From Kiritimatiellia bacterium (GTDB lineage: Bacteria > Verrucomicrobiota > Kiritimatiellia > RFP12 > JAAYLN01), in assembly GCA_028718445.1 (NCBI GenBank), contig JAQULY010000005.1, forward strand, positions 1-33,553: 33,553 nucleotides of DNA. Reading direction: 5' to 3'. Every line of letters starts with the position of its first letter. Position 1 is the first letter of the stretch. The position numbers were made by a program, and so were the translations under genes. Below the pieces are notes generated by a model. That model was not told the origin of the DNA, ran no database searches, and worked only from the letters and a program-made list of their open reading frames with translations. Positions 3 through 29,399 of the stretch are shown here, in pieces.

Positions 3-179
3 CTGTTCGAGCCCAGCATGGTGGTCACGGTGATGACCTGCAACAGTCGCTCCGGCACGTTCGCGCAGACCAATTTCCTGAACGACGTGTCGTGCCGGGT
101 GAACTACCTTGGCAACATGATTACGCTGGACCAACTCAATCCCATGCGGATTCGTGGAACATCCATCTCGATCCGGTGA
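3..179 (+). CDS. 3' end of a secreted repeat (beta-helix/autotransporter-like) protein, truncated by the window edge
   Basis: Open frame from position 3 to TGA 177-179: LFEPSMVVTVMTCNSRSGTFAQTNFLNDVSCRVNYLGNMITLDQLNPMRIRGTSISIR. It aligns with the C-terminus of the 18864-20348 protein (FYFAPGAVVTAMTYSARNGTFARNNILGGMECRVNY...ITLDRLRPVPPGTVIAIR). Confidence 0.8.
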   Translation: MFEPSMVVTVMTCNSRSGTFAQTNFLNDVSCRVNYLGNMITLDQLNPMRIRGTSISIR

Positions 180-889
180 CATGGGAGCGAACAACGCCAG
201 CGCCATGACCTCGCGAAGTCGTCCAGAGAACCTTGGCTTTCGAGAACCCCGATCACCTGCTGTGGCTGACAGGTTCAGACCAGAAGATAGAATATGACTG
301 CGTAGAGGGTACGTGTGTTGAATTGGCGGGGTCAGTCACGGTAACGTCAGAGAAGCCGCAATCAGCACGAATGCGACCGCAGACCGATACGTGCCCAGTG
401 CCGCGCCAACAACGGCAACTCCCCCACCCAAGACTGGTGACGTGACATTCTACATACTCACAACCAGAGGCATACGTACGACGACGGCGAGAGAAGAGGG
501 CCTCGGCGAGCAAAGACATGTGCTTTCATCCCTCGTCAACGAGGGGGAAGAAGTAATCACACAGTCAAGACTTGTGTCAGAGTTGAAATGAGTGCCGAAC
601 CAGCGGGTGGAGCGTGCTATGAGACTTGGACCGGAAAGCCGGCCCATGCTGACGCGCCGTCATCCGGTAGCCCCGATCCGCGCCGTACTTGTCCACGGTG
701 GCGGGGACTGAGTACTTCTTCCGGTTCAGGAGCCGCCTTCGGGACGCCGACGGGCAGCGCCGACACCCTTGGTATGTGACCCGGAGTGCTGTCTGACGGA
801 GTCAGGCGCAGCTCCATTTTCGTCGCGCTCGCATACAACCCAATCGCGCCCCTGTCTCGCTGATGCATGTCTGTCCTATTTGCGGGGTG

Positions 890-2011
890 TTAACCGTCTA
901 CTGATTTTCTCCCCCTCTTTTTCTGTCCATTGCGGGCGACGATTAAGGTGGACGATTCGGACGTGTCCGGAGAACGAAGGAGTCGGTCGTCAACTGACGG
1001 CCGCACACGGCGGCCGCGCTGGATGTGCGTGACGCGGAACAGACTAAGGTTCACACCCGGCGCGAAAAGGTGGTGACAGGATGGCAGACTGAGGTCGCGG
1101 AACGGATCATCGGCGACCCGTCGCGCTCGCCGCGCACGCGTCTCGCCGGGACAGTGCCCGAAGTGCCGTTTGAACATGCGGTTGAAGTGGGAAGGGTCCT
1201 GGAAGCCGGCTTTGGATGCCGCCACTTTGGCTGCGGCGCCGTCGGCCAGCAACTGGTAGGCTTGCCACAGACGCCGGTCAATGCAGTACTGCTTGGGCGT
1301 TTTGCCGAAATGGCGACGAAACTTGCTGATGAAGTGCTGAACGCTCCAGCCCATGTCGCGGGCCAGTTGCCTGACGGTGAGAGGCAACTCCGTTTCCTCT
1401 TCCAGCCGGAGGAGAAGACACTGCCAGTCCGTCAGATGGCAGTCCTGCGACGGTTTGCGGTGGGACACAAGTCCGAACGCCAGCCCGATGAGGTCGAGAA
1501 TGGCGGAGGCTGTTTCGATACGCCATGCGGGACGGAGCTGCAGCAACGACTGGACCATGCGCTCGAACGGTCCGATGAAGCGATTGAGGTCCGGCCCAAC
1601 GTGCAGCACGTGCGGAAGGCTGCCGATCTCTTCCAGATGCGGAATCGTATACTCGAAAGGCGGCGCGGCGGGCTGGAAGATCACTTGGTAGATAGATATT
1701 GCTTCGTTTTCAGACACAGTGTATCCGTTGCGACCAGCGTAGAACGTCACAAGCGAGCCGGGACCGGCAGTACCCACGGCGCCGTCCGAACACCAGAAGC
1801 GCATCTGGCCATGAAGGATCAGATAGATGTTCACGCCGGGAATCCAGATGTCGAAGTCGGATGCGGCCGGATGCACATAGAAGGACGCTAACAAGATGCG
1901 GGGCGTCAGTTGTTGCACATCCAGCGGCTGCCGGGCATGCGGGCCCAGTTCGTCCGATGCGGCCGGCAGTGTCAACGAAGGGTTATCTCGACTCGCAGAA
2001 TTCACTTTCAT
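890..2011 (-). CDS. AraC-family transcriptional regulator (AraC-like N-terminal sensor plus C-terminal double HTH)
   Basis: 373 aa ORF. C-terminal HTH pattern LTVRQLARDMGWSVQHFISKFRRHFGKTPKQYCIDRRLWQAYQLL...VAASKAGFQDPSHFNRMFKRHFGHCPGETR. Divergent from the LamG-led operon. Confidence 0.88.
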   Translation of the reverse strand: MKVNSASRDNPSLTLPAASDELGPHARQPLDVQQLTPRILLASFYVHPAASDFDIWIPGVNIYLILHGQMRFWCSDGAVGTAGPGSLVTFYAGRNGYTVSENEAISIYQVIFQPAAPPFEYTIPHLEEIGSLPHVLHVGPDLNRFIGPFERMVQSLLQLRPAWRIETASAILDLIGLAFGLVSHRKPSQDCHLTDWQCLLLRLEEETELPLTVRQLARDMGWSVQHFISKFRRHFGKTPKQYCIDRRLWQAYQLLADGAAAKVAASKAGFQDPSHFNRMFKRHFGHCPGETRARRARRVADDPFRDLSLPSCHHLFAPGVNLSLFRVTHIQRGRRVRPSVDDRLLRSPDTSESSTLIVARNGQKKRGRKSVDG

Positions 2012-2209
2012 TTAATACCATTGAATCCGAATTTAGATCAACTGTTTGCTGTTGTCCAGCCGTTCATGATAGGAGAAACTGTAATACAGAAGCAGGTGAC
2101 ATATCCAGTCCGGCGCGGTGCCGCGGCGCCAACGTGCGATCCCGAGGTAAGGGTTGTGTCGAACTGGCCTTGCGCAAATCGAACACGAAGAAAGGAGAGG
2201 GACGACGCT

Positions 2210-3988
2210 ATGACATACTCAATATGCAGTCGGTTGTGGGTGGCGGTTCCGCCGTTCATATCCCTGATCAGGACCAGTGTCCTGGTGACGGCGCTGGCCC
2301 TGTCTGGGACCGAGGCGCGGGCGGAACTGGTCGGATACTGGAACTTCGACGGTAACGTCAACGACGCCAGCGGCAACGGTAACAACGGCACGATCCATGG
2401 CGCGGTTGTTTACACGAACGGCGTGTTTGGCGGCGCCGGCGGCGCGGCCTATTTTGACGGGAACGTCGCCGACTACGTGAGTGTCCCGAATTCGGCGAGT
2501 CTCGGCGCCGCATGGCCGGGCTGTGTTATCTCGTTCTGGTGCAAGAAGACCGGCGGAGGCTTCCCCGTGTCGAAGATCCAGAATGATTCCAAAGCGGGGG
2601 TCGGGCAATGCGCCGACGTTTGGTACTGGTATCATGTTGAGGGTGCTGGCTATAGCAGTATCAGCGCGGGGAACACGATGAACTCCACCTGGCAAAACCT
2701 GGTTCTGCGGTGGGACGGCGCCAATATCACGTCGTACAGGGACGGCGTTCAACTGGATACCGCCCCGGCCCCCACATTCGCCAACAGCACGGACGAACTG
2801 CACATCGGCAAGGACAACCGAGGCGCCCAAAATGAATGTCCCTGCAGCATAGACGAGGTGGCGATCTTCAACACCAACCTCACCGTGGCCGCGTGCAAGG
2901 CGATCTATAACATCGCCGTTTCCAGGCTGAGCTACTCCATGGCCGACATGAGGAAGCTTTTCGCGCTATATGCGGCCGCTGGGGGCACGACAAGCACCAG
3001 TGACGGCAAGACTTGGTCATACGTCGCGAGCGGCCTCCCCGGCCAAGCGGGGCAGCTCACCGAGTCCGTCGGCTATTTCTCCGTGATTCTTTCCGACTCC
3101 GGTTCCGCCGGCGTGCGGGCATATTCCGCCTCCGCTGGACTCGCCGGCTACTGGGACTTCGACGGCACCCTCAACGATGCCAGCGACAATAACAACCACG
3201 GCACCGTTAACGGCACGGTCCCCTATGCGAACGGCGTATTCGGCGGCGCCGACGGCGCGCTGTCGTTTGACGGCAACAGCAACAACTACGTGCGCGTCTC
3301 GAGCTCGGCAAGCCTTAGCGCGGCGTGGCCCGGTTTTGTTGTCTCGTTCTGGGGCAAGACCGGTACAGCCGGCTCGCCCATGGGCAACCACGATGGCACA
3401 AGAGGATTCATGCAGTACGCCTTTAACGCCGACGGTTGGTATTATGGCTATGGGACGGATTATTGCTTCATCTCGGCGGGAGCTAACGGCGACTCTGCCT
3501 GGCACAATCTGGTTTTGCGGTGGGACGGCGCCGAGATCACGTCGTATATGGATGGTGTTCAGCAGGCGAACGCCACTCCGCCGAGTTATGTAAATAGCCA
3601 AAACGATTTGTGTTTCGGCAGAGACAGCCGTTTCGGCGATCCCTTCCCCGGCTACTCAGGCAACCCCTATACCGGCTACGTAGACGACGCCGCGATTTTC
3701 ACCGTGGCCCTGACAACGAACGCGTGCCGGGCGATCTACAATGTCGGCGTCTCCCCGCTGGGCTATTCCATGGGCGACATGATCAAGCTGTTCACACTAT
3801 ATGCGGCCGCTGGGGGCAAGGTGAGCACCAGTGACGGCAGGGAGTGGAAGTACGTGGCCGAGGGTCTCCCCGGCAACGGGGGCGAGCTTGCCGGCTCCAG
3901 TGGCGCCTATTCCGTGATCTTCTCCGACTCGGGATCCGCCGGCGTCCAGCAGTATGCCCACTCCGGAACAGTCATCCTGCTGCTCTGA
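2210..3988 (+). CDS. Secreted protein with two tandem LamG/concanavalin-like modules, each followed by a repeated ~80 aa module
   Basis: ATG 2210 preceded by AAAGGAGAGG. Hydrophobic N-terminus (LIRTSVLVTALALSGTEARA). LamG hallmarks GYWNFDGNVNDASGNGNNGTIHG and GYWDFDGTLNDASDNNNHGTVNG. C-terminus GTVILLL. Confidence 0.88.
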   Translation: MTYSICSRLWVAVPPFISLIRTSVLVTALALSGTEARAELVGYWNFDGNVNDASGNGNNGTIHGAVVYTNGVFGGAGGAAYFDGNVADYVSVPNSASLGAAWPGCVISFWCKKTGGGFPVSKIQNDSKAGVGQCADVWYWYHVEGAGYSSISAGNTMNSTWQNLVLRWDGANITSYRDGVQLDTAPAPTFANSTDELHIGKDNRGAQNECPCSIDEVAIFNTNLTVAACKAIYNIAVSRLSYSMADMRKLFALYAAAGGTTSTSDGKTWSYVASGLPGQAGQLTESVGYFSVILSDSGSAGVRAYSASAGLAGYWDFDGTLNDASDNNNHGTVNGTVPYANGVFGGADGALSFDGNSNNYVRVSSSASLSAAWPGFVVSFWGKTGTAGSPMGNHDGTRGFMQYAFNADGWYYGYGTDYCFISAGANGDSAWHNLVLRWDGAEITSYMDGVQQANATPPSYVNSQNDLCFGRDSRFGDPFPGYSGNPYTGYVDDAAIFTVALTTNACRAIYNVGVSPLGYSMGDMIKLFTLYAAAGGKVSTSDGREWKYVAEGLPGNGGELAGSSGAYSVIFSDSGSAGVQQYAHSGTVILLL

Positions 3989-4001
3989 AGGAACCGGGCT
4001 C

Positions 4002-6905
4002 ATGTCTGAAATAGAATCAGAACCTCAGCAGCCACCGAAATCCACGTGGAAGTTCGTCCGGGAGTTGCGGAGTCCGCTCTGGCGGAAGATCCGCTGGCAG
4101 CCGCGTGCCCTGCGGGTCCATGAAGCCGATCTGAGTCATGGCGTCACGATACGGGCGGGTTTCCAGGACGACTGCGGTCTCCTGGACACCGCCTACCGGG
4201 ATCTGGAGCGGTTCTTGAATGCCGCGGGAATCCGTCACCCCGGCCCTTACTCGATCGTGACGCACCATGTCAGCACTCCCGTGCCAGAAGCCTACCGTCT
4301 GGTCGTTGGACGCGAGGGGTGCGAGATTCTGGCCGGCGACACCGAGGGGATTCGGCGGGCGATGTTCTTCCTCGAGGATGAGATCCTGCGCAGCGGCGGG
4401 CCGTTCCTGCCCCTCGGAACCATCAAACGACGACCGGTGATCCGCACCCGCATCTCCCGTTGTTACTTCAGCACCCCTTACGGCGCCCTGACGGATGATG
4501 TCAGCTATTATCCGGAAGAGTACCTCAACCGGCTGGCGCATGAGGGTGTGAACGGACTCTGGTTGGGGATTACCTTCAGCAGGAACTGCCGTTCCACCGT
4601 GATTCCGGAGCACGGGCGCGAGCCGGATGTCACCCCGCGCATCCACATGCTCCGCCGGATCGTCGAGCGTTGCGCCCGCTATGGGATCAAGATTTACCTG
4701 TTCGGCATCGAGCCGCACCACATTCTGGCGGATAGTGCGGTGGCCAAAGCGCATCCGGAATTGCTTGGCCACAAGATGGGGTTTCATGAGGCTGATACAT
4801 TTCACTATTTCTGCACCAGCAACCCGACGGCGCAGGCCTACCTGGAGGAGGTCACGCGCAACCTGTTCACAGATGTGCCCGGACTTGGCGGCTTGATCAA
4901 CATCAGCGTCGGAGAGGGCGGTACGCACTGCTACTCCGGTTGGCCGGACCACATCGCCTGTCCGCGTTGTGCCTCGCGCCGGCCGCGAGACGTGCTGAAC
5001 GACACCATGGCCGCCATGGAACGCGGGATGCACGCCGCCAGCCCTGATGCCGAACTCATTTCCTGGCCTTACACCCAATACGTGGACTGGGGCCAGGCAC
5101 TGACGGTGGACTCCGCGGGACATCTTCCCAAGGGTGTCTGTCTTCTGCACAACTTCGAGTCTGCCGGCGAGGCCAGCCAGTGTGGCCACCGGCAGGCCCT
5201 GTGGGACTACTGGCTGTCGTGGGCCGGACCGAGCAAGCTTTTCCGCGATTGCGCCCGGGCGGCGGTCAAGCGCGGCAACCGCATGTTCGCCAAACTGCAG
5301 GTGGGCAACAGTCACGAGGTGGCCACAGCGCCATTTGTGCCGGCGCCGGGCCAGCTCTATCGAAAGTACCGGGCCATGCACGCCTTGGGCGTGAGCGGGG
5401 TCATGCAGTGCTGGGACTTCGGCAACTACCCTGGCGTCATGACCCGAGCCGCGGGTGAACTGGCGTTCGCGCCCTTGCCGAAGAGCGAGGATGCGTTTCT
5501 TCGGAGATTAGCGCGACGCGATTGGGGACAGGACGCGGACATCGTGGCGCGAGCGTGGACACTGTTCCAGCGCGGATACAGTCACTTCCCGATGAACCAT
5601 GTGTTCGGTTGGCTGGGCCCCGCCCATGATGCGCCGGCGTGGCCGTTGCATCTGGAACCGGCCGATCGCGTGATTGCCCCCACCTACGCGTTGTGGCCGG
5701 AGTCCAGCGGCGACCGGATTGGAGAATGTTTCGCCCACACGCACACACTCGCCGAAGTCTTGTCTCTCTGCCGGCGGATGGCCGACGACTGGAATCGCGG
5801 CGTGGTCATCTTGAAGAGACTCCTGCCGCGCTACCGGCACGACCGGGACCGCCGTCTGGACATCGGAGTGGCCGTGGCGTTGGGAATACAATTCGAAAGC
5901 GCCTACCACATACTGCGTTTCTATGCCCTGCGGGAAGATCTCCCCCACCAATCCCGCGTCCGCCAACTGGCGACCCTCAAGCGCATGCGGGCGCTCGTCA
6001 AACGGGAGATAGCGCGGGACGTGGAACTGCTGGAGCTGTGCCGAGCCGATTCGCGCCTTGGATTTCATTCGTCGGTGAAAGGCTACAAGTACTTCCCGGC
6101 CAAGATCCGCTGGCGCAAACGGCAGTTGGAGTATTTGCGGAGGGACGAGTTTCCGCGTGTGGAGTCGCAGGTCCGGCGGAGCATCCCGCTCTGGCCTGAA
6201 TATACCGGTCGTAAACCCACCGGCAGCCTTTACCGGTGCCGGCGAGTGGCCGCGCCGCCGGCCATGGCCGGCAAAGTCCGCGACCCGGTTTGGGCTGGCT
6301 TGGAGGAGGCTGAACTGACATTCAGGAAGGTGTGGAAGGAGCGCAACGCAGGTGACGTGTCCGCCGAATCGCGCACGACTTGGCGGGCGTGTTACGACCG
6401 CCACGCCCTCTACATTGGCGTCAACTGTCCTCTTGAAGACGGTGTCACCGCCCATCCCCATGTGCGCAAGGTCATACCGAGGAACATCAACACGAATGTG
6501 GCCAGTCTGGGGATGGTGGAAGACGATCCGGAGCGCAACGACATCGTGCGCGTGCTGATTGAACCCAGGCGGCTGTGGCCCAACCAGTGTTACGAAGTCG
6601 CGGCTGACGGCACCCGGTATGACCCCGTCTACCCGGTGCCCGAAGGCCCGCATCGGAAGGCGTGGAGCGTGGTGACACATCGTGACCCAACCGGCTGGTT
6701 TGCCACCTTCCGTATCCCCTGGATCTGCCTGTGCGACGACGCGTCACGGCGCCGGCCCATTCGGATCGATGTGGAACGGACCGTGAACGGCAAGGCGGGA
6801 ATCGTCACCCACAGTTGGATGGAACGGCATCCGTTGCGTCATCGCCTGGTGTTCTTGACTGCCAACCCGGCCGATCTGGGCTGGCTGATCTTCAGCGGCG
6901 CATGA
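4002..6905 (+). CDS. Large glycoside hydrolase-like protein (GH20-like N-terminal and TIM-barrel region) with C-terminal CBM9/DOMON-like domain
   Basis: ATG 4002 with SD AAGGAA, 13 nt after the previous stop. N-terminal YRLVVGREGCEILAGDTEGIRRAMFFLEDE resembles GH20 domain 2. No obvious signal peptide. The C-terminus (YRCRRVAAPPAMAGKVRDPVWAGLEEAELTF...RACYDRHALYIGVNC) resembles CBM9-like folds. Confidence 0.75.
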   Translation: MSEIESEPQQPPKSTWKFVRELRSPLWRKIRWQPRALRVHEADLSHGVTIRAGFQDDCGLLDTAYRDLERFLNAAGIRHPGPYSIVTHHVSTPVPEAYRLVVGREGCEILAGDTEGIRRAMFFLEDEILRSGGPFLPLGTIKRRPVIRTRISRCYFSTPYGALTDDVSYYPEEYLNRLAHEGVNGLWLGITFSRNCRSTVIPEHGREPDVTPRIHMLRRIVERCARYGIKIYLFGIEPHHILADSAVAKAHPELLGHKMGFHEADTFHYFCTSNPTAQAYLEEVTRNLFTDVPGLGGLINISVGEGGTHCYSGWPDHIACPRCASRRPRDVLNDTMAAMERGMHAASPDAELISWPYTQYVDWGQALTVDSAGHLPKGVCLLHNFESAGEASQCGHRQALWDYWLSWAGPSKLFRDCARAAVKRGNRMFAKLQVGNSHEVATAPFVPAPGQLYRKYRAMHALGVSGVMQCWDFGNYPGVMTRAAGELAFAPLPKSEDAFLRRLARRDWGQDADIVARAWTLFQRGYSHFPMNHVFGWLGPAHDAPAWPLHLEPADRVIAPTYALWPESSGDRIGECFAHTHTLAEVLSLCRRMADDWNRGVVILKRLLPRYRHDRDRRLDIGVAVALGIQFESAYHILRFYALREDLPHQSRVRQLATLKRMRALVKREIARDVELLELCRADSRLGFHSSVKGYKYFPAKIRWRKRQLEYLRRDEFPRVESQVRRSIPLWPEYTGRKPTGSLYRCRRVAAPPAMAGKVRDPVWAGLEEAELTFRKVWKERNAGDVSAESRTTWRACYDRHALYIGVNCPLEDGVTAHPHVRKVIPRNINTNVASLGMVEDDPERNDIVRVLIEPRRLWPNQCYEVAADGTRYDPVYPVPEGPHRKAWSVVTHRDPTGWFATFRIPWICLCDDASRRRPIRIDVERTVNGKAGIVTHSWMERHPLRHRLVFLTANPADLGWLIFSGA

Positions 6906-7069
6906 CAGGAGAGTCTTCACACAACGGGGTGGAACTGAAGAATATCCAAAGAGTAGATCGAAAACCGTTTCCAGCGAGATGCCTTAACGACGCAAAGGAT
7001 GTGTTGGAAAGAGCACATCAGTCTCAAGACTATTCCCGGCGAAGACACACAGCGAAAGAGGATGACCCC

Positions 7070-10000
7070 ATGCGCACGATACAAAACATAGCTCTGGTCG
7101 GAATTGTCCTTGTCGCCACTCGCCTCATGGTGGTGTCCTCCACGTTGGCCGCGGACCCGCCGCCGCAGGTCTCCATTCCTGAAATGGTGCAGGCTCCGAA
7201 GCTGGATGGAGTGATTGAAACGGGGGAGTGGCAGGATGCCGTCGGCAACTACGGGTTTGCCAACGTCAACGGCGCCATGCGCCTCAATGATCGTGAAGCC
7301 CGTTTCTGGGTGGGGCGTAAGGGCGAGACGCTGTATATCGCGATCCAGACCGAGACGCCGCCCGGCGATAGCGTTCTAATCCGCACTCAGCCGGACGCCA
7401 CACGCGACATCCCCGAGGCGTTCTACGATGACAACATCGAGCTGGTTCTGGATCCCAACCGCGGGCGTACATCCGGCGACCGCACATTTTACCATATCAT
7501 CTCTAGCGCCAATGGCGCCATGCACGACTGGTCCGTTGATCCGGATAACAAGGCCAATCCGAAAAGCACCGTATGGCGTCTGCCAGAATGGACGATGACC
7601 AACACCGTGCACGACGGGTCGTGGGACATCGAGCTGGCCATTCCATTTCCGGCGCTTGGCGCGCATCAATCCGATCTGGCCACGCCGTGGGGCATGCGAA
7701 TTGCCCGCAATTGGCAGCGCCCGTTCCAGCAGTCGCAATGGGAGTCGGTCGGGGGGGACTACGACGCTCAGAGCACGATGCCCGTGGTGGTCTGGGATGA
7801 CACGGCGCCGGTGACGCAGGTACTGTCGCTGTATGACCGCGACAAGTCGCTGATCCGGGTGAACCTCCGTAATCCGCACGCCGCTCCCCTGGACGTGGCC
7901 GTCTACATGCAGGATGCCTGGCACTCGGACCAACTCCAGGTGCTCAAGAAGACGATCACGCTGGAGCCCAACACGGAACAAGTGCTGGAACTGACCTCGC
8001 CGGACGGCGGACCGGGCGGCGATCACCGGACCATCATCAATCTCACCAGTCCGGACGGCAAGAAGACGTACTATTTCCGGGACTTCAAATGGAACCTGCA
8101 CCGGGCCCATGACGCCTGGCAGGTCGCCAAGCGCGAGAGCAAGAAGGTGGATCTCAAGTTCAAGTTCTATCCGTCCTACAACAAGATTCGGGTATGGGTG
8201 AACGCGAAGGGTCTGGATAAGGCCCGGGTTACCGGGGCGTCGGCGGAAGCGCTCAAGCTGGAAGGGACGGAGCGGAAGGCTGGGAAACGCTACTGGCACG
8301 GCAGACTGGAATTCAAGGATGGGATATCGGAGACGATCGCGGAGATTCCTGAGTTGCCCGATGGCGACTACCGGCTGATGGTCAAGTTGGAGGGAGAGAA
8401 CGTATCGCCAGAACCACTGGTTCAGGACTTCATCCGCAGACACTTCGAGTGGGAGCACAACAAGTTGGGCATCAGCGACAAGGTCATCCCGCCGTTCACG
8501 CCGCTGAAGGCCAGGGGAGCAACCGTCCAGTGTGTGCTGCGCGAAATGACTCATGGGGACGCGGGGCTCTGGGACAAGGTCGTGAGCCAGGACAAGGACA
8601 TCCTGGCTGGTCCGATGCGGTGGGAAGTCGAGATGACTGACGGCTCCAAGCCGGCCATCAAGGGCGCCGGATGGAAAGCGGTCTCGCGGAGAGAAACCGA
8701 AGTGGTGGGGCGGACGAAATGGCAGGCGGGGGCGCTAAGAGCCGATCTGGAGACCCGCTATGACTATGACGGTATGATGAAGTGTACGCTTACGCTGAAG
8801 CCCTGCGAGACCGCCGTCAACGGGCTGACCCTCAAGATGCCGGTGGACGATGGGCGGGCCGGGTTCATGCACGCTTGCGGCGATCACCTGCGGCAAAACT
8901 ACGCCGGCCAGACTCCGACGGGCAGCGGCCGGGTCTGGGACAGCTCGAAGGGGAACAAGACCGAGATTGTGGGCACGTTCTATCCGTATATCTGGCTTGG
9001 CGACGGCGAGCGCGGCCTCTGCTGGTTCGCGGATACGGACCGCGACTGGGTCCTCGATGACAAGACGCCGGTGATTGACCTCGTCCGGGAAGGGAAGACC
9101 CTTTGGCTGAACGTTCATTTCATCACCAGGCCGGCGCATCTCGTTCGCGAGCACAAGATTGTCTTCGGTCTGCAGGCAACGCCCACCAAACCGATGCCGG
9201 ATGGCTGGCGACGCTGGACCTTTGGAGGCACAATCCCGGGAGCTCGGCCGGTGGCCCTTCTGGGAGCATCCTACTATTGGGGCAACACCCTGGGTTGCGA
9301 CAGCATGCCATACCCCTTCGAAAAAGACTTCACCTTCTTCAGGGAGATGAAGCGGTTACGGGAAACCGGCCAGACCGACGCCCGGACCGCGGAGTTCCTC
9401 GAGAATTGGATGAAAAGGATCGCGGCGGCCTATCATGCACCGGAAGGTTCCGCGAACTACGAAGATATCCGGGTGCACGTGAATGCCGGAATGAGCATGT
9501 CCGCCGGCACCGCCTGGAAAGACGGTGTGCGCCTGGTCCCCTACACCAACGCGCGGGGCGTCGCTTTCCGTGACGAGGAGTTTGCCACGTTCCAGGATGA
9601 ATGGCTGAACTACTCCTTCTTCAACCGCGAATGGGACCCGAACGTCTTTGGCAACGGTGTCGCATACGACGTTACCCCCACAACCAGCATGATTGAGTGT
9701 CTGCTTTGGTATTACCAGGAGATGCTGACATGCCTGGACGGCGTGTACTGGGACAACACGTTCCTGGCTGCGCGTCAGGACCCGGTTGTGGGGGATGGGA
9801 CCTGGACGGACGACAGGGGCCGGGTGCATCCCGGCCTGGGGCTCTTTGCCCTGCGGGAACTGGTCAAGCGGACGGCTGTTTTCTTCGCAGAGGAAGAGAG
9901 GAAGCTGCCGCAAAACCGAAAGCCGCTGGTCATAATGGCCCACATGACCAACACGGAACTCGTGCCGGTGCTCTCCTTTCTCAATTGCACGTACGACTGG

Positions 10001-10549
10001 GAGTGGAAGTACGGCGAGGACGATTTCCAGGACCGCTTCACCTGGGACCTGGCCGTGGCCGAGACTATTGGCCGTCAGGTCGGCGCCTGGCCGACCATTT
10101 TGGCCGGCGGCAATTGGGATCCGAAGGGGCCCCGCTACGAATGGCTCATGCGGAATCGCCTGGGCGTCTGCCTAGTTCATGAGATTTGGGCGCATTGTGC
10201 GGGCAAGGACCCCTATGCCAAGTTGTTCGAGTTCGGCTACGGTTCGCCGGGGTGCACGGTTTACAACTACTGGCAGGACGGTCATCCCGCCATCGTGACC
10301 GGCGATCAGGTGATCGGCAAGACCCTGGTCATCGCCAAGCCCGGCGCCGCTATCGTGGCGATCACCGACTACGGCGAGGGTGGTCTTTGCCGGGTGAAGC
10401 TCGACTTGGCGAAGCTCGGCTTGGACCAAGATGTAGCGGCCGTCAATTTCGAGTCGGGCGAGTCGGTCAAGCGAATCGCCCCCGGCGAGTTCGAGGTGCA
10501 GATTCCCAAGCACGATTTTCGAATCATCACAGTAGGACAGCCCAGATGA
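7070..10549 (+). CDS. Secreted glycoside hydrolase-like protein, N-terminal CBM9-like and DUF6067-type core
   Basis: ATG 7070 follows AAAGAGGA. Signal-like N-terminus MRTIQNIALVGIVLVATRLMVVSSTLAADPP. CBM9-like VQAPKLDGVIETGEWQDA. DUF6067-like segment ERGLCWFADTDRDWVLDDKTPVIDLVREGKTLWLNVHFITRP. Confidence 0.75.
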   Translation: MRTIQNIALVGIVLVATRLMVVSSTLAADPPPQVSIPEMVQAPKLDGVIETGEWQDAVGNYGFANVNGAMRLNDREARFWVGRKGETLYIAIQTETPPGDSVLIRTQPDATRDIPEAFYDDNIELVLDPNRGRTSGDRTFYHIISSANGAMHDWSVDPDNKANPKSTVWRLPEWTMTNTVHDGSWDIELAIPFPALGAHQSDLATPWGMRIARNWQRPFQQSQWESVGGDYDAQSTMPVVVWDDTAPVTQVLSLYDRDKSLIRVNLRNPHAAPLDVAVYMQDAWHSDQLQVLKKTITLEPNTEQVLELTSPDGGPGGDHRTIINLTSPDGKKTYYFRDFKWNLHRAHDAWQVAKRESKKVDLKFKFYPSYNKIRVWVNAKGLDKARVTGASAEALKLEGTERKAGKRYWHGRLEFKDGISETIAEIPELPDGDYRLMVKLEGENVSPEPLVQDFIRRHFEWEHNKLGISDKVIPPFTPLKARGATVQCVLREMTHGDAGLWDKVVSQDKDILAGPMRWEVEMTDGSKPAIKGAGWKAVSRRETEVVGRTKWQAGALRADLETRYDYDGMMKCTLTLKPCETAVNGLTLKMPVDDGRAGFMHACGDHLRQNYAGQTPTGSGRVWDSSKGNKTEIVGTFYPYIWLGDGERGLCWFADTDRDWVLDDKTPVIDLVREGKTLWLNVHFITRPAHLVREHKIVFGLQATPTKPMPDGWRRWTFGGTIPGARPVALLGASYYWGNTLGCDSMPYPFEKDFTFFREMKRLRETGQTDARTAEFLENWMKRIAAAYHAPEGSANYEDIRVHVNAGMSMSAGTAWKDGVRLVPYTNARGVAFRDEEFATFQDEWLNYSFFNREWDPNVFGNGVAYDVTPTTSMIECLLWYYQEMLTCLDGVYWDNTFLAARQDPVVGDGTWTDDRGRVHPGLGLFALRELVKRTAVFFAEEERKLPQNRKPLVIMAHMTNTELVPVLSFLNCTYDWEWKYGEDDFQDRFTWDLAVAETIGRQVGAWPTILAGGNWDPKGPRYEWLMRNRLGVCLVHEIWAHCAGKDPYAKLFEFGYGSPGCTVYNYWQDGHPAIVTGDQVIGKTLVIAKPGAAIVAITDYGEGGLCRVKLDLAKLGLDQDVAAVNFESGESVKRIAPGEFEVQIPKHDFRIITVGQPR

Positions 10550-12459: not shown

Positions 12460-12474
12460 TTGCCCGAACGAACC

Positions 12475-13377
12475 ATGAGAACAGCCCTCATAGCGTTGTC
12501 ACTCTCCCTGATCCTGCCGGCGGTTCTTCCGATGCCAGTTTGCGCCGACGGAGAGCCCCCGTTTGACTCTCCGTACCGTTCTCACCCGGAACTGATGGAC
12601 TTGTTGGCAGATGCGATCTTCTACGTCAGCTACGATGACGAAAGCATGAAGCCCGGGCTGATGGCCGGCAAAGAAGGGTTGCTGCGGACGGAACCGCCTG
12701 GCTGGCATGACCAGCCGGAGCCCGGGAAGGTCTATGGCGAGTATGCACCCGGCTTGGTGGGCAAGGCCCTGAAGTTCGGAGCCGGCATCGGGACTTACGC
12801 CGCGACGGGCAACATCACGCTGTCAACCTGCGGCGCCGTCTCCTTCTGGATCAAGCCGGTCGCTTGGAGGGAGCATGGCGATGGCGGCATGACCTACTTC
12901 TGTACCGAGTTCGCTTCCATCGGCGTGGAGCGCCTGGCCGGCGAAATAGACAGGGACGGGAGACTCCTGGCGAATGAGAGCAACTTGGCCTGGATCAGTC
13001 CGGCGCCAGGGGCGCGGAATCTCACTGCAGGGCAGGGGGGCTTGCTCGAGAACGGGAAATGGCATTTCCTGGTCTTCAACTGGGCCTGGCCGACTTTTTC
13101 GTTGAGCATCAACGGCGGGGCACCATCCACCCAGTCTCTTTCCCAGCTCCCGGTTCAAGCAGTCGTGGGTCAGAAGGTTTTCCACCTCGGATCCAAAGGC
13201 AAGCCCGCGCCAACCTTGATGGACGAGGTGATGATCTTCAGTCGCCCCCTCAACGCCGCGGAGATCAGACTCATCTATGAAACGGTGAGTTCCTGGGCGA
13301 AGAAACGGAATAGCGCGTCCGTTGTGTCGCAGGGGCTGCCAGGTAATAACTCAACCGTATCGAATGACAAACAATGA
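12475..13377 (+). CDS. Secreted LamG/concanavalin-like domain protein
   Basis: ATG 12475, with TTG 12460 in frame as an alternative. Signal peptide MRTALIALSLSLILPAVLPMPVCA. LamG-like TLSTCGAVSFWIKPVAW...GKWHFLVFNWAWPTFSLSINGG...TLMDEVMIFSRPLNAAEIRLIYE. Confidence 0.75.
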   Translation: MRTALIALSLSLILPAVLPMPVCADGEPPFDSPYRSHPELMDLLADAIFYVSYDDESMKPGLMAGKEGLLRTEPPGWHDQPEPGKVYGEYAPGLVGKALKFGAGIGTYAATGNITLSTCGAVSFWIKPVAWREHGDGGMTYFCTEFASIGVERLAGEIDRDGRLLANESNLAWISPAPGARNLTAGQGGLLENGKWHFLVFNWAWPTFSLSINGGAPSTQSLSQLPVQAVVGQKVFHLGSKGKPAPTLMDEVMIFSRPLNAAEIRLIYETVSSWAKKRNSASVVSQGLPGNNSTVSNDKQ

Positions 13378-16657: not shown

Positions 16658-16707
16658 GGGAACAGTTACCGGATTATCTCTTCATAGTCCTCACAACACT
16701 CAAGACA

Positions 16708-16756: not shown

Positions 16757-16779
16757 GACTGGCGTTCAGGGATGCACTT

Positions 16780-17709: not shown

Positions 17710-17813
17710 TTCCGGGCGAAGGGGCGATATGAGAGCATGACGATGTCGAACCGGACTGGGTTTGCGTCATACCGCCGGGCGTCTTTCGCGTGAGGTTGCA
17801 GGACAATACAGAC

Positions 17814-18824: not shown

Positions 18825-18863
18825 ATGGAGCGCAACGCGTCGCAGACGGCAGGGGGAGCGAAC

Positions 18864-20348
18864 ATGAAACGAACACGATGGACGGCAACTTTGGCTTGCG
18901 CGCACGTGATCAGTGTGATGGCGGGCGCGCACGCGGGACAGGTCTTCTTCGGTGTTCCCAGCGGGAACTGGAACGTCCCGGGCAACTGGACGGGCAGCGA
19001 GCTCCCGGACGCAAGTGACCAGGCGGTCGTTGGCGCCGTGCTGCCTGGCCAGACGGCCATCCTGACGGACACACAATCGGTAGGCATAGCCTCCATCTCC
19101 TACCTGTCCAAAGCCACACTCGACATCCAGGCGACTGGCGACCTGGAGGTCAGTGGACGCTGCGAGGTCGGCGGCTCGGTGACGGGAACGGTGCTTGTGG
19201 CCGGCAAGTTGGCGGCAGCCAGTATCTATCTTGGTTACGGCTTGGGACGGCTGGTCCAATCCGGCGGAACGATAACGTCGCCGGTCGAGTTCAGCATGGG
19301 GTTCAATCCTAATGACCGCGCCATTTACGAGCAGTACGGTGGCACGAATGCCTTCGGACTCATGCAAATCGCGCGCCACAACAATGCCTATGGTGTCTGC
19401 ACCATCACCAACGGTGCGCTGGCGACGTCGACTCTCACCGTGGGAAGCGCGGTCGGCGGCGTTGGCGGCACCGGGGTACTCACGATCGCGGGCTCGGCTA
19501 GCGTGGCGGTAGGCACTCTCCACGTGGGCTCGGCTCCCGGCGGCAACAGCGGATTCATGAGCATGGACGGCGGCATGCTGACGGCGAGCGCGATCTTCGT
19601 CTCCTATCAGGGATTCGGCTGCTGGACGCAGTCCGCCGGAACGGTCACCTGCCCGACAATCAATATCTCATGGAGTGCCGGAGTCACTGGACGTTGTGTG
19701 ATGACGTCGGGCGTGCTCAACGGGGATTTCATGCGACTGAGCTACGTGCATGGCACCGGCACGATCGCGTCAATGGACCTCTACGGCGGCATGCTGTCGC
19801 TGACCAATCTGACGATGGGCACCGGCACGGGCAGCGTGTGTACCGTGCGCCAGTACGGCGGCACGAACCGGATCGCGAACACGCTCAGAATCTGCGACAA
19901 CATTCAGGAAACCAGCGCCTATATCATCAACGGTGGCCTGCTGGAGGTTGGGAACCTGAACATCGGCGGTCAGGCGGGGACCGTCGGCACGCTCACGTAC
20001 GGCGGCGGCGATATTCGCGCCGGTAGCCTGGCCATGAGTTCGGCCGGCGACGCCTCGCTCGAGCTGGTGCTGACGCCGACGAATCTCAGCCCCATTCAGG
20101 TGTCCGGGACCGTCACGCTCAACGATGCCTTGACGATCCGGCGCGCCGGCAACTTCTACTTCGCTCCGGGCGCCGTGGTTACGGCCATGACTTACAGCGC
20201 GCGCAACGGCACTTTCGCCCGGAACAATATTCTGGGAGGCATGGAGTGCCGCGTGAACTACGACGTCGACGTGGGCGGCGGCCTCAAAGCGATCACCCTG
20301 GACCGGTTGCGGCCGGTGCCGCCGGGAACCGTTATCGCCATCCGCTAG
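18864..20348 (+). CDS. Secreted Gly/Thr-rich repeat protein (beta-helix, autotransporter-associated-strand-like)
   Basis: ATG 18864 (MKRTRWTATLACAHVISVMAGAHAG). Repeated segments such as LTVGSAVGGVGGTGVLTIAGSASVAVGTLHVGSAPGGNSGFMSMDGGMLTAS. C-terminus GTVIAIR. Homologous 3' block in CDS 3-179. Confidence 0.8.
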   Translation: MKRTRWTATLACAHVISVMAGAHAGQVFFGVPSGNWNVPGNWTGSELPDASDQAVVGAVLPGQTAILTDTQSVGIASISYLSKATLDIQATGDLEVSGRCEVGGSVTGTVLVAGKLAAASIYLGYGLGRLVQSGGTITSPVEFSMGFNPNDRAIYEQYGGTNAFGLMQIARHNNAYGVCTITNGALATSTLTVGSAVGGVGGTGVLTIAGSASVAVGTLHVGSAPGGNSGFMSMDGGMLTASAIFVSYQGFGCWTQSAGTVTCPTINISWSAGVTGRCVMTSGVLNGDFMRLSYVHGTGTIASMDLYGGMLSLTNLTMGTGTGSVCTVRQYGGTNRIANTLRICDNIQETSAYIINGGLLEVGNLNIGGQAGTVGTLTYGGGDIRAGSLAMSSAGDASLELVLTPTNLSPIQVSGTVTLNDALTIRRAGNFYFAPGAVVTAMTYSARNGTFARNNILGGMECRVNYDVDVGGGLKAITLDRLRPVPPGTVIAIR

Positions 20349-20455
20349 CGTGAGGAATCAGGGCGACGCCGTGCCCGCGAAAGAAAAGGGGAAAAAGGTG
20401 CCACAGATGAAACTGTCGGTAACAGCAGGAGTGCCGGTAACGTGCGTATATCTGG

Positions 20456-24253: not shown

Positions 24254-24317
24254 GCGGGGGCTCCGAATTCTGCGGTTCTGCGGTTCACCAGGAATAGGGC
24301 GAAACGCATGGTCCTTT

Positions 24318-24863: not shown

Positions 24864-24910
24864 TGGCTGCCTTTATGATGTGGCCCGCATTCTATACAGA
24901 AGAAATGTCC

Positions 24911-24939
24911 TTGACCAGTCATATGTTACGTATTATTCT
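24911..24939 (+). promoter_or_regulatory. Sigma70-like promoter of AraR-type regulator copy 1
   Basis: TTGACC (24911-24916), 17-bp spacer, TATTCT (24934-24939). The same architecture precedes copy 2. Confidence 0.6.
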
Positions 24940-24952
24940 TGCGTCCGTAGCG
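24926..24952. promoter_or_regulatory. Candidate operator dyad, copy 1: GTTACG-N15-CGTAGC
   Basis: Inverted half-sites overlapping the -10 region and abutting the SD. 5 of 6 positions are symmetric here; copy 2 is perfect. Confidence 0.45.
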
Positions 24953-24962
24953 GAGATAAATA

Positions 24963-26075
24963 ATTAATCTGGATTTTGAAATCAAGCCGGCCGAGCCGGC
25001 CGACGTACAACTGGGACGTTTTCTGCGCCGCCAGATCACATCCGGAACGCTGGCGCCGGAAACACGGCTGCCTCCGACCCGAGAACTGGCCCGGCGCTGG
25101 CATGTGAACAACGAGACCATCGGCCGCGCCCTCGCGCCACTGACGGCCGAAGGGCTGCTGGTCCGCGCCCCCAAGCGCGGCACGTTCGTCCGGGCCGCCA
25201 CGGACAAGACGCTCATCGGCGTGTTGTTCGGTCCCAGCCTGACGGACGAGACCGCGCATTTCTACCGCGCGATGCTCAAGGCGTTCTCGGTGGAGCTCAG
25301 GGAACGCAAAAGCTTGCGCCGGTCATTCGATGGATTGTTCGTGAGACTCGGGTCGAACGACCCGGACGAAGCACATGCCCGCCGGCATTTGATCTCGGAA
25401 CTGGGGCACCATCGGTTCTCGGGGCTGATCGAGTTCGCGTTCAGCAGCTACGCCTTTCCCGACTTGGCCTTGGCTCGAACTCAGCCCCGGGTGTGTTTCG
25501 AGTCTTCGCGGGCCGACACCGATGCTGTGGTTGATTCCACGGTTTACGGTCGAACCAGCGTCGAGTTCCTGGCACGGCTCGGCCGCCGTCGGATCGCCGT
25601 TTTTTTGCCGAACAAGGCGTTGTCCCCCGGGAAGTTGGACGCCATCGTCAGCGCCGCTGCGAGCGAGATGGGACTTCCGCAACCCCGGATGGTGGAAGTG
25701 TCACTGCCGCCCCGGCAAGGATATGAGGTCGAGCAGGCGGCATTCAACGCGGCCGTGGAGATGCTCCGCGGGTGGGCGCGGTTGAACGATGAAGACAGGC
25801 CGGACGCCCTGCTGGTCTCCGATGACATCATCATGCGCGCCGTGGCCCTGGCCTTGATCAAGGAGCGCGTGCGGGTGCCGGAGGATTTGTTGGTAATCAC
25901 ACAGGCCAGCGAAGGCGTCGAACTGCATTACGGGATTCCTGTCGTTCGATACGAGTTCTCGACGCGTGAAATGGCGCGCGCACTCGTGGACCTGCTGTGG
26001 AAACGAATGCAGGGCGCGGACACCGGTCCGTTGCCGATCCGGTTTGTGGGGAAGATCAGGGCCGGCAACCCGTAA
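24963..26075 (+). CDS. GntR-HTH / LacI-type effector transcriptional regulator (AraR-like), probable non-canonical start
   Basis: NLDFEIKPAEPADVQLGRFLRRQITSGTLAPETRLPPTRELARRWHVNNETIGRALAPLTAEGLLVRAPKRGTFVRA is a GntR winged HTH. LacI-like tail ...DRPDALLVSDDIIMRAVALALIKERVRVPEDLLVITQASEG. An in-frame TAA at 24957-24959 closes the frame upstream. No ATG/GTG/TTG occurs before GTG 25104, which lies inside the HTH. Confidence 0.85.
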   Translation: MNLDFEIKPAEPADVQLGRFLRRQITSGTLAPETRLPPTRELARRWHVNNETIGRALAPLTAEGLLVRAPKRGTFVRAATDKTLIGVLFGPSLTDETAHFYRAMLKAFSVELRERKSLRRSFDGLFVRLGSNDPDEAHARRHLISELGHHRFSGLIEFAFSSYAFPDLALARTQPRVCFESSRADTDAVVDSTVYGRTSVEFLARLGRRRIAVFLPNKALSPGKLDAIVSAAASEMGLPQPRMVEVSLPPRQGYEVEQAAFNAAVEMLRGWARLNDEDRPDALLVSDDIIMRAVALALIKERVRVPEDLLVITQASEGVELHYGIPVVRYEFSTREMARALVDLLWKRMQGADTGPLPIRFVGKIRAGNP

Positions 26076-26135
26076 CGGGACATGCCGATTGAGTATGGTT
26101 TGGTAGAGCTTGTGACTTGATGGGTAACGATAGAG

Positions 26136-27692
26136 ATGCGTATGAAGACAGGCATTGCAGATACAGGCATTCGTAGAGAACTGAGCTGTATGGGAACCAT
26201 GTTGTTTCTGTTCCTGTTCGGAAGCGCAAAGGGGCAGGCTGTCGAGCCGACAAATATCGCAAATCTGCAGCTCTGGCTCAAGGCCGACTCCGGGGTATAC
26301 GCCGATCAGGCGGGAACCACGCCAGCGATGAATGGAACGGCTGTTCAGCGCTGGGAGGACCAGTCCGGCAACGACAAGCACCTGACTTCGGTCGGCACAA
26401 GCGAGAACGCCATCCTGCGGTCGTCGGTTGCGGGTCTCTGTAAACGGGCCGCGGTGGAATTCACGGGAACGACCAATGGTATTCTTGAGCTCGTTAACCA
26501 AACACTGGCCATCACCAACGATTTGACGGTATTCGTCGTCACACAGTTCAACCTCATAACGAACCATCAAACATTCATCGCAAATCGCTATAGCACTTTC
26601 GGATGGGACTTCTATCATTATTCCGCGGACCTCAAGATGTGTGTCAAGGCCACTGCAACCTGGCCCAAGGACTTTGTGATGCTGCAGAATGGTCTCAGCA
26701 CCAACTGGTTGTTCGCAACCGGGCTGCGCATCGGAACCACAAACAGTGTCAGCGTCAATCGCGCTCTGACGACTTCCGCCGTGGGATCGTCCGGCCCCAT
26801 CAGCTACCATGCCAATAGCAGGCTGACAGTCGGCGGGCTATCAGACAATTCTCAACAATATGTTGGTCAGATGGCTGAGGTTGTCGTCTACAATAGAGCG
26901 CTCACGAGTGGGGAGCGCTCCCAGGTGGAAGCGTACCTCTACGCCAGGTACTATGATCGCCCGGATAGCTCCACACCACCCATTGCGCACTGGAAGCTGG
27001 ATGAGACCAGCGGCCCGGTCCTTGCGGACTCGTCGAAAGATGGTCTTTACCCCATGACTCTAAACGGCGAGACGCCATCCGCTGCGCTCGGGTCAGCGGA
27101 CGTGCCTTCAGGAATGCCCGCCGGAAGCAAGAGCGTCTTCTTCAATGCAAATGATCGCAAGGGAGAGTTGGCAACCCGCGCCTATACGGCATCACTGTGC
27201 GGTTCAACTTTTACCGCGGCTGCCTGGGTAAAGCCAAACGACAGTACCCCCGACTCATTGCAGGAATTCATTTTCGGACCGTATGGAACAACTGTTTTTA
27301 CCGGTTGGTCCATGAGATGGTATGATGGCCCATTTTTCTCTCAGCAGATCGGCGCTGACAATAAATGGTACGGCGGCGTGTCTAGCGCGAAATTAGCGGC
27401 AGGATTGTGGTATCATATTGTTTTTCAGATCGAAGACAACGGGACCAAAGACAACTATCGTCTCTACGTGAACGGCGCGCTCGCGAACGAAGCGTTGGCG
27501 GGGCCGAACTATACACCGAGCGCAACGGCGTCTTTCGTTCTCGGCGGCCGACACGACTATACACGCTGGGATGGGGGGCTGGATGACGTGCAGTACTACG
27601 ACTACACGTTGACCGCCAAAGACGTTGCGTTCCTGTACCACAACCCCGGCGCAACAATCCCCCCGCCGCCCACCATTGTCTTGATCAAGTAG
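26136..27692 (+). CDS. Secreted LamG/concanavalin-like protein (two LamG-like modules)
   Basis: PTNIANLQLWLKADSGVYADQAGTTPAMNGTAVQRWEDQSGNDKHLT and IAHWKLDETSGPVLADSSKDGLYPMTLNG...WYHIVFQIEDNGTKDNYRLYVNG...GGLDDVQYYDYTLTAKDVAFLYHNPG. Hydrophobic N-terminus MGTMLFLFLFGSAKG. C-terminus PTIVLIK. Confidence 0.85.
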   Translation: MRMKTGIADTGIRRELSCMGTMLFLFLFGSAKGQAVEPTNIANLQLWLKADSGVYADQAGTTPAMNGTAVQRWEDQSGNDKHLTSVGTSENAILRSSVAGLCKRAAVEFTGTTNGILELVNQTLAITNDLTVFVVTQFNLITNHQTFIANRYSTFGWDFYHYSADLKMCVKATATWPKDFVMLQNGLSTNWLFATGLRIGTTNSVSVNRALTTSAVGSSGPISYHANSRLTVGGLSDNSQQYVGQMAEVVVYNRALTSGERSQVEAYLYARYYDRPDSSTPPIAHWKLDETSGPVLADSSKDGLYPMTLNGETPSAALGSADVPSGMPAGSKSVFFNANDRKGELATRAYTASLCGSTFTAAAWVKPNDSTPDSLQEFIFGPYGTTVFTGWSMRWYDGPFFSQQIGADNKWYGGVSSAKLAAGLWYHIVFQIEDNGTKDNYRLYVNGALANEALAGPNYTPSATASFVLGGRHDYTRWDGGLDDVQYYDYTLTAKDVAFLYHNPGATIPPPPTIVLIK

Positions 27693-27790
27693 CGCGCATG
27701 CTGGTGCCGTTGGATATGCTGGTTGTCACACAGGCCAGCGAAGGCGCCGAGCTGCATTGTCACCGATACGGTTTGTGGTGAAGATCAGAG
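27670..27790 (+). pseudogene. Degenerate remnant of the 3' end of an AraR-type regulator, with an internal deletion
   Basis: CTTGATCAAGTAGCGCGCATGCTGGTGCCGTTGGATATGCTGGTTGTCACACAGGCCAGCGAAGGCGCCGAGCTGCATT matches CTTGATCAAGGAGCGCGTGCGGGTGCCGGAGGATTTGTTGGTAATCACACAGGCCAGCGAAGGCGTCGAACTGCATT of the 24963 regulator. After a jump of roughly 100 bp, CGATACGGTTTGTGGTGAAGATCAG matches CGATCCGGTTTGTGGGGAAGATCAG. Confidence 0.85.
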
Positions 27791-27821
27791 AAGAAAAACA
27801 CTCCAGCGTTGAGGAATGAAC

Positions 27822-29399
27822 ATGAAGCGAAGACTCGGACTTGGAATCACTCTGCTGGTGGCGCTGGGAATGGCCGTGGCGCGGGCCGCGGAATACACGG
27901 GCATCACGACCAATTACAGTCTGTATTCGCTGTCCGACCAGACGGACACGTGGACGAGATGCGAACTGACGGTCGCGAACTTGTACGTCGCGTCCAACGC
28001 GAATAGCACGGCTGCATTCCGGCTCATTTCGACCACGAACAACATCAACGGCACGCATTACATCGGGTTCGCCGGTCCCGGCAAGTATTGCGCCGAAAGC
28101 GGTAGCCTGCTCAGGATTGGGGCGGGTGTGGAAGTGCGGCGCGGCGAGTTGCGGATGACCGACTCGACCGGGGTAGTCGCCAGCGGCAAGAGCGTTCTTC
28201 TGGATCTGGCGAAATCGGGCACGACGGGCGACCTGCACTTGATGCGCTCGCGGCTCGAGCAAGCTTCCGGCGGCGCACTGGATATCCAGGCGGGCTATGC
28301 CTCGCAAGGAGGGAAACAAGGCCGGTTGTTCGCCACGGATTCCACGCTCATCGCCAGGAATCTCACATGCGGTTATAGCGACCCCAATATAAACTACCCG
28401 GAAGGCTTCTTCGTGTTCGACCATTCAATTGCGGCACTGGCCTACTGCCGTCTCGGAGGAACCACCGGCGTTGGCAACAATCGCGGATTCCTTATGCTCA
28501 CAAACGGGAGCGAAATGGCCGTTTCTGGCAACCTGGAGGTGGGTTTCGGCAGCGGGGATGCCTATGAGTGCAAACTCATCGCATCCGGTTCGCGTCTGAC
28601 AGTGGGAGGGAACACGACAATCGCCGAAAGAGGAATATACGGCCGGGGGCGGGTGACGTTCAAGGACGGCGCGACGGGGCTATTTTCAGGCAACGTGACA
28701 GTGGGTGTGAGCGTCAGAAGCGGAGTTCCATCCCGCGGCTATCTCGATGTGCTTTCTGCCAGCCGCATGGATATCACCAACACCTCCGGCAACGCCACCC
28801 TGACCGTTGGAGTCTGGGGGCCAGCACCCGGTCAGGGGGGCAGCGACACGCCGGTTCCCGGCGGCTATGGGCGGTTGACCATCGACGGCGGAAGCACCTG
28901 CCGGGTCGACAACCTGGTGGCCACGAACAACCTGCTGTACCAAGGGGCGCCGTGCAGCGCGATTACGTTCAGCAACGGCCTTCTGAGCGTGAAAAGCGGG
29001 GCGATTGCCAACGATCGGACCACGACCATCGGCGATGGAATTGATCCTGCGAAACTTGACCTGTGGGGGCGGCAGCCCTTCAACGTCACCAGCAACTTGG
29101 TTTTCTCCGACAACGCGACGCTGTCCTTAGAGATCGGCGGGCCGATCACGAACGACTGCAACTACCTCGACGTGCATGGGGTGCTGACCTTCGACGCAGG
29201 TTCGGCGCTGGTGGTGAGCCTGGTCAACGGGTACAAGCCGTGCGCGGCGGATGACATCACGGTGGCGCTGGCCGATACACTCGCGACACTGCCCGGCACG
29301 CTTACATCGCGGTGGGTCGCCAGGATCGTGGACGAGGGGGGCCGCAAGGCGTTGAAGATCAACCTGCCTCCCGCCGGCGTCGTCATCATGCTACGCTAG
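27822..29399 (+). CDS. Secreted repeat (beta-helix/autotransporter-like) protein
   Basis: GAGGAATGAAC precedes ATG 27822. Signal peptide MKRRLGLGITLLVALGMAVARAA. Repeats such as NGSEMAVSGNLEVGFGSGDAYECKLIASGSRLTVGGNTTIAERGIYGRGRVTFKDGATGLFSGNVTVG. C-terminus PPAGVVIMLR. Confidence 0.82.
   Translation: MKRRLGLGITLLVALGMAVARAAEYTGITTNYSLYSLSDQTDTWTRCELTVANLYVASNANSTAAFRLISTTNNINGTHYIGFAGPGKYCAESGSLLRIGAGVEVRRGELRMTDSTGVVASGKSVLLDLAKSGTTGDLHLMRSRLEQASGGALDIQAGYASQGGKQGRLFATDSTLIARNLTCGYSDPNINYPEGFFVFDHSIAALAYCRLGGTTGVGNNRGFLMLTNGSEMAVSGNLEVGFGSGDAYECKLIASGSRLTVGGNTTIAERGIYGRGRVTFKDGATGLFSGNVTVGVSVRSGVPSRGYLDVLSASRMDITNTSGNATLTVGVWGPAPGQGGSDTPVPGGYGRLTIDGGSTCRVDNLVATNNLLYQGAPCSAITFSNGLLSVKSGAIANDRTTTIGDGIDPAKLDLWGRQPFNVTSNLVFSDNATLSLEIGGPITNDCNYLDVHGVLTFDAGSALVVSLVNGYKPCAADDITVALADTLATLPGTLTSRWVARIVDEGGRKALKINLPPAGVVIMLR

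Follow-up and report, generated by a model that had tools for sequence, protein, structure and literature searches.

The beta-signal of outer-membrane proteins, which is read by the beta-barrel assembly machinery (BAM), is very short, lies at the extreme C-terminus, is strand-like, ends in an aromatic residue and is found on beta-barrels. The C-terminal sorting tags MYXO-CTERM, GlyGly-CTERM and LPXTG all have, to our knowledge, a transmembrane segment after a short motif. In LPXTG the transmembrane segment follows the motif, and a PEP-CTERM signal is made up of PEP, a transmembrane helix and a cluster of basic residues, all of them required (PMC1569441). The type IX secretion system (T9SS) needs a C-terminal signal, of which the last 22 residues suffice for export of fused GFP (PMC4804311), and in its C-terminal domain (CTD) motif D contains a Gly and motif E a terminal basic residue that are both conserved (PMC11969387). 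Here, a tail of about seven residues at the very end of exported proteins is described from a Kiritimatiellia bacterium. The window analysed is a whole contig of 33,553 bases (G000:C5) from the draft genome G000 (5.72 Mb, 86.7% complete). The tail occupies the position where other bacteria have an anchor, and its pattern, location and distribution were observed directly. From these we infer, with a probability of roughly 0.6, that it is a candidate C-terminal tag, minimal and lineage-specific, by which exported proteins would be sorted or anchored.

An original prediction, made from the window alone, had placed five such tails at the ends of exported or partial proteins, and all five could be located at those coordinates by direct reading. 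Their terminal residue is R in three, K in one and L in one. The tails, their carriers and one LamG protein that serves as an internal negative are as follows.

156-176, stop 177-179, forward strand: tail GTSISIR of a beta-helix-type protein cut at the left edge of the contig (direct reading).
2210..3988, forward strand: exported protein with two LamG domains and tail GTVILLL (signal peptide read directly; Pfam PF13385, E=2.2e-18).
3965-3985, with stop to 3988, forward strand: variant tail GTVILLL-stop (direct reading).
12460..13377, forward strand: LamG protein without tail, C-terminus NDKQ, internal negative (Pfam PF13385, E=3.2e-10).
18864..20348, forward strand: exported protein, predicted beta-helix, tail PPGTVIAIR (AlphaFold model).
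20325-20345, with stop to 20348, forward strand: tail GTVIAIR-stop (direct reading, genome pattern match).
26136..27692, forward strand: exported protein with LamG domains, tail PPPPTIVLIK (Pfam PF13385, E=3.5e-27).
27669-27689, with stop to 27692, forward strand: tail PTIVLIK-stop (direct reading).
27816..29399, forward strand: exported repeat-rich protein, no Pfam match, tail PPAGVVIMLR (reading and Pfam scan).
29376-29396, with stop to 29399, forward strand: tail GVVIMLR-stop (direct reading, genome pattern match).

The gene ending in GTSISIR is truncated at the contig edge because the window is the entire contig; the last 58 residues of its product match a tailed paralogue in L150. The two exceptions named earlier, the LamG protein ending in NDKQ and the tail GTVILLL without a basic last residue, were as described, and the last codon of GTVILLL, CTC (Leu), is one base off the Arg codon CGC.

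The form of the tail was determined from 75 tails of eight genomes, a set for which T at -6 and the terminal R/K class had been selection criteria. G was found at -7 in 71, I at -4 in 62 and R at -1 in 69 of these tails. The remaining positions were occupied by L/V/T/I (-5), L/I/M (-3) and I/L (-2), and Pro was enriched at -9 to -11, in agreement with the earlier remark that the tails usually follow a Pro-rich stretch. The information content was 2.7 bits at -7 compared with 0.55 at -8, showing that the core begins abruptly at Gly. The tail of the original prediction is real, but the loose heptapeptide pattern given for it is better written as G-T-x-I-x-[I/L]-R; the five tails of the window follow the form seen across the genome rather loosely. 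Each of the four Gly and four Thr codons occurs among the tails, as do six codons for Arg and every stop codon, which indicates that selection acts on the peptide sequence and its placement at the extreme end.

Enrichment was assessed by a pattern search of the genome and in a 790-kb sample. For the search, a degenerate DNA pattern encoding G-[T/V and others allowed by RYN]-x-I-x-[I/L/M]-R-stop was used, with the reversed pattern as a control, and 35 matches were obtained in the own genome (G000) versus 0 for the control. Thirty matches were fetched, of which 25 were exact ends of open reading frames of at least 84 amino acids and one more was the contig-edge gene of the window; at least two of the 30 loci were spurious short frames. 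Chance or a codon artefact is ruled out by the reversed-pattern control together with the free codon variation. The 790-kb sample was picked by contig order, blind to content, with simple gene calling, and exported and non-exported proteins were told apart by the author's hydrophobicity rule, not by SignalP. In this sample, 7/149 predicted exported proteins ended in T-x-[ILVC]-x-[ILVM]-[RK], compared with 0.05 expected from the internal rate of the pattern, and shuffling the last 20 residues gave a mean of 0.07 and a maximum of 2 tails. An eighth tailed protein had been classed as 'other' only through a start codon placed too far upstream in gene calling; an internal signal peptide is present in it, so that all eight tailed proteins of the sample are exported. 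Scaling leads to an estimate of ∼60 tailed proteins per genome, and to a higher one when the variants GTVMLMR, GTVLLIN and GTVAVIR are counted. The refuting condition set with the original prediction, a lack of enrichment on exported proteins across the genome, was checked in this way, and the motif survived it.

The carriers are unrelated to each other. Besides LamG proteins and choice-of-anchor-Q beta-helices, they include autotransporter-type PATR repeats, CBM96/DNRLRE, a GDSL lipase, phosphodiesterase/sulfatase with LamG, G8 and F5/8C, so the sharing of the tail by unrelated folds, first noticed for LamG and beta-helix, extends to PATR, F5/8C and CBM96. T5SS/PEP-CTERM-associated and passenger-type repeats were observed upstream of the tail in other carriers. 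A tail-like end was found in seven of nine distinct closed LamG frames that were read, one of them being GTVIMIP, which ends in Pro. Laminin_G_3 has 131 matches in the 5.7-Mb genome G000, and any match was obtained in only 5/14 control genomes. In G040, the tailed proteins of L229:2231-4906 and L230:6646-10803 begin with a cytosolic region resembling FecR and have a single predicted transmembrane segment ahead of their GDSL/CBM96 or PATR/LamG regions.

In an alignment of 11 LamG sequences, the domain ends at a common place and is followed by a linker of almost nothing to more than 20 residues before the tail. An AlphaFold model of the C-terminal domain of 26136..27692 (mean predicted local distance difference test, pLDDT, 60; predicted template modelling score, pTM, 0.67) has the last 11 residues outside the ConA/LamG jelly roll, with the tail as a coil after the last helix (modest confidence), and the jelly-roll fold was confirmed by Foldseek. 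The model of 18864..20348 (pTM 0.71) consists of repeated strands, a low-confidence Pro linker (485-490) and a low-confidence strand (491-493), with a pLDDT of ∼51 for the tail. In L208, the choice-of-anchor-Q domain stops 11 residues short of the C-terminus. The NCBIfam name of this domain reflects its adjacency to varied anchors, and the tail starts within a few residues of the domain end. The alternative of an ordinary interior strand, which the original prediction had kept in view, is not supported by the variable linker between LamG and tail or by the models, which place the tail outside the LamG core or after a low-confidence linker.

Scans with Pfam and NCBIfam did not recognise the tail in either library. 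No convincing lipobox could be read in the tailed proteins, and a lipoprotein route was discarded for this reason. Next to tailed genes, no dedicated gene was found, the only recurrent neighbour families being regulators and carbohydrate-related proteins. In the window, a run of genes for large carbohydrate-active-looking proteins extends over 3954-16657 and includes a beta-galactosidase resembling glycoside hydrolase family 42 (14612-16657), the best named relatives of which are only ∼30% identical. Right after the PTIVLIK stop, the forward strand at 27693-27800 (MLVPLDMLVVTQASEGAE) resembles the end of a LacI-type regulator at 25104-26075 (VPEDLLVITQASEGVE). It is a decayed partial copy and probably corresponds to what had been called a recombination junction; no direct repeat of at least 18 bases was found there.

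Compared with the described systems, the tail resembles PEP-CTERM/exosortase (TIGR02595/PF09721) in being C-terminal, in its many copies per genome and in its occurrence on a variety of proteins that have a signal peptide, show little homology to one another and differ in the domains before the tail; the lineage logic is also that by which PEP-CTERM was proposed (PMC1569441). It differs in lacking PEP, a transmembrane helix and a multi-residue basic cluster, and in its length of ∼7 versus ∼24 residues. When the 75 tails were read residue by residue, no combination of PEP, helix and basic cluster was found, and their last 40 residues contained no hydrophobic stretch of helix length. The NCBIfam model PEP_CTERM gave no match in the tailed proteins scanned. 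Across 33 genomes of the class, the counts of tails and PEP-CTERM proteins were negatively correlated (Spearman -0.43, p 0.012, relatedness uncorrected). The relation is clearest within the same order, where PEP-CTERM proteins number 16-30 in family f4, which has no real tail, and 2 in G000, which has more than 30 tails; G158 (f17, same class) has 1 PEP-CTERM protein and 14 tails. The lineages richest in PEP-CTERM proteins are without the tail. Exosortase PF09721 is present in the own genome (E=1.7e-54) and in 145/154 genomes of the class, and it was discarded as a discriminating partner since it is encoded nearly everywhere in the class. The exosortase frame has ∼560-800 codons in several tailed lineages (G000:C73, G158:C15, G010, G012, G015) versus ∼330 in many tail-free ones, and the long frame is perhaps a fusion with an EpsI-like part. 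Homology upstream of the tail between the PEP-CTERM beta-strand protein L285 and ten tailed C-termini reached at best only E=0.004 in a tiny set and is not claimed.

The nearest mechanistic analogue may be the end of the T9SS CTDs (PMC4804311, PMC11969387). With these (TIGR04183; short CTDs of Prevotella intermedia) the tail shares a terminal hydrophobic strand, a conserved Gly and a terminal basic residue, but it has no CTD fold and is far shorter than the 43-55 amino acids of short CTDs. No TIGR04183 match was obtained in the window or in seven other tailed proteins. SprA_N was matched in 0/58 genomes, with no match in a positive-control genome either; PorV was above the cut-off only in G422, with one 40-residue sub-threshold match in the own genome; and Por_Secre_tail gave two matches on small contigs of G000 and none in the other tailed genomes listed. 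A T9SS route was set aside, as no association was seen via PorV or Por_Secre_tail, nor via SprA in the search that gave no match in a control genome. The two matches in G000, to TIGR04183, lie on the short contigs L330 (G000:C447) and G000:C553, and the one read is an NPFxP/FlgD-like C-terminal domain; they may stem from contamination, which is put at 5.6% for the assembly, or represent a tail type gained horizontally.

With MYXO-CTERM, GlyGly-CTERM and LPXTG, which are C-terminal sorting tags common to dozens of unrelated proteins, the tail shares this wide distribution, but it has no transmembrane segment. The original prediction had set it apart from PEP-CTERM, LPXTG and the T9SS CTD, and this separation holds for the tails tested, which show no PEP, transmembrane helix or TIGR04183 match. 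Like the BAM beta-signal, the tail is very short, extreme C-terminal and beta-strand-like, but it ends in Arg (69/75; R/K class selected) and not in an aromatic residue, and its carriers are not predicted barrels: Pfam identified no beta-barrel in tailed proteins and LamG, PATR, F5/8C and CBM96 instead. No paper describing the tail was found in the literature searches made, and those on Kiritimatiellota/Kiritimatiell- together with type IX secretion, PEP-CTERM or sorting by the C-terminus gave no papers. Enrichment on exported proteins, unrelated carriers and a fixed C-terminal position, which are general marks of C-terminal sorting signals, were all observed. The tail would belong with these signals, as a helix-free variant new to them.

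When 59 relatives from the order were searched, families f1 and f3 had many matches (e.g., 15 in G040 and 8 in G054), whereas f4 was at noise level and its matches read GTPIAMR, in short frames that are nearly identical upstream. These GTPIAMR matches of relatives were set aside, being short frames that are probably antisense to a conserved gene. The GTPIAMR/GTPIAIR matches (L016, L032-L039, L043, L044) represent one near-identical frame (NQHSGTPIAMR) and are a trap for pattern counts. In a search of 388 genomes from across the phylum, the pattern was no more frequent than the reversed control in most families; the clear exception outside the order is f17, where G158 (3.1 Mb) has 14 matches versus 0 for the control. 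In 29 named genomes, mostly of other phyla, 11 matches were found, 8 of which end in TGG (not a stop), versus 8 for the reversed pattern. Looser ends occur on choice-of-anchor-Q/LamG proteins in other families of the class, namely GTVYSIR, GSVYKVR and GMLLIVK (G185), GLTIIAR, ATILIVR and GAVIQVR (G222), and GTLLIIE (G236); the tail is therefore probably of greater age than the strict pattern would imply. Many exported proteins of tail-free families in the class (L257, L262, L263, L276, L323) end in another short domain, with an FYRV/FYKV strand and a few residues.

The proposal of a sorting or anchoring signal thus stands as far as pattern, C-terminal position and enrichment on exported proteins are concerned, and the function is what we infer. 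After Sec export, the free tail would be read in the envelope, where its short beta-strand may add to the edge of a receptor's sheet. Such beta-strand addition would be suited to the tail because four consecutive beta-branched or aliphatic residues sit between Thr and the terminal Arg, and Arg with the carboxylate would form the polar end of the docked strand, whose four hydrophobic residues would lie on both of its faces. Docking would hold large adhesin-like and carbohydrate-binding proteins at the outer surface, or hand them to it. Several observations weigh against a sorting or anchoring tag. Many exported proteins have no tail, some genomes are low in tail and PEP-CTERM alike, and no co-distributed receptor was found in the searches made. 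Two tailed G040 proteins have a cytosolic-looking N-terminus and a predicted transmembrane segment, and a predicted inner-membrane segment fits poorly with simple outer-membrane translocation; if this segment is real, the tail can occur on proteins fixed in the inner membrane, which would imply either a reader in the periplasm or cleavage of the segment. The variants GTVILLL, GTVLLIN, GTLLIIE and TSLLFIVQ indicate that the terminal Arg is not absolute. The wider claim, that a helix-free, Arg-ending tag of ∼7 residues with its own envelope receptor took over from PEP-CTERM, in several lineages of one Verrucomicrobiota class, the role of principal surface tag at the C-terminus, and is a new class of sorting system, is put forward tentatively, with somewhat more doubt than belief.

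The tail might instead be an outer-membrane secretion signal that targets its cargo to a putative translocon and is perhaps removed on passage, like the last strands of the T9SS CTD, with no lasting anchoring. The tailed proteins are large and extracellular-looking, and T9SS, with its need for a C-terminal signal, its conserved Gly and its terminal basic residue, offers a loose parallel to G...R (PMC4804311, PMC11969387). However, the T9SS parts went undetected (SprA_N without a positive control, PorV outside G422, Por_Secre_tail in every other tailed genome listed) and tailed proteins with a predicted inner-membrane segment exist, and this explanation is considered unlikely. That the tail is a structural end-piece, the last beta-strand capping or closing the preceding beta-rich domain, would agree with the mostly beta-rich carriers and with the short low-confidence strand in the beta-helix model. 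It seems quite improbable, as the same heptapeptide stands behind LamG, F5/8C, CBM96, PATR and choice-of-anchor-Q domains, the linker after LamG varies as described above, and the LamG model leaves the tail as a coil (modest confidence).

Short hydrophobic C-termini are typical handles, which would suit an assembly or quality-control tag, in which the tail either acts as donor strand when surface proteins polymerise or is gripped by a protease or chaperone of the periplasm; a periplasmic reader would also agree with tails on proteins predicted to be anchored in the inner membrane. Ligands of classical PDZ grooves end in a hydrophobic residue, and the terminal Arg of 69/75 tails argues against such a groove. 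As a groove-bearing partner was not found in the searches made either, a tag of this kind is regarded as highly unlikely. A degenerate PEP-CTERM processed by exosortase is hardly credible: exosortase is encoded in the 145/154 genomes mentioned, the own genome included, and the tail often follows a Pro-rich stretch, but PEP, transmembrane helix and basic cluster are required (PMC1569441), the tail has none of them, and the lineages richest in PEP-CTERM proteins are tail-free.

In diderms outside the well-studied phyla, the surface placement of large adhesins and polysaccharide-binding proteins is mostly unexplained. The tail marks a likely surface proteome from sequence alone and can be fused to a reporter, and its phylogenetic profile could serve to find its partner. 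If the sorting or anchoring role is true, the tail would rank with the shortest known sorting signals of the C-terminus, few of which lack a transmembrane helix.

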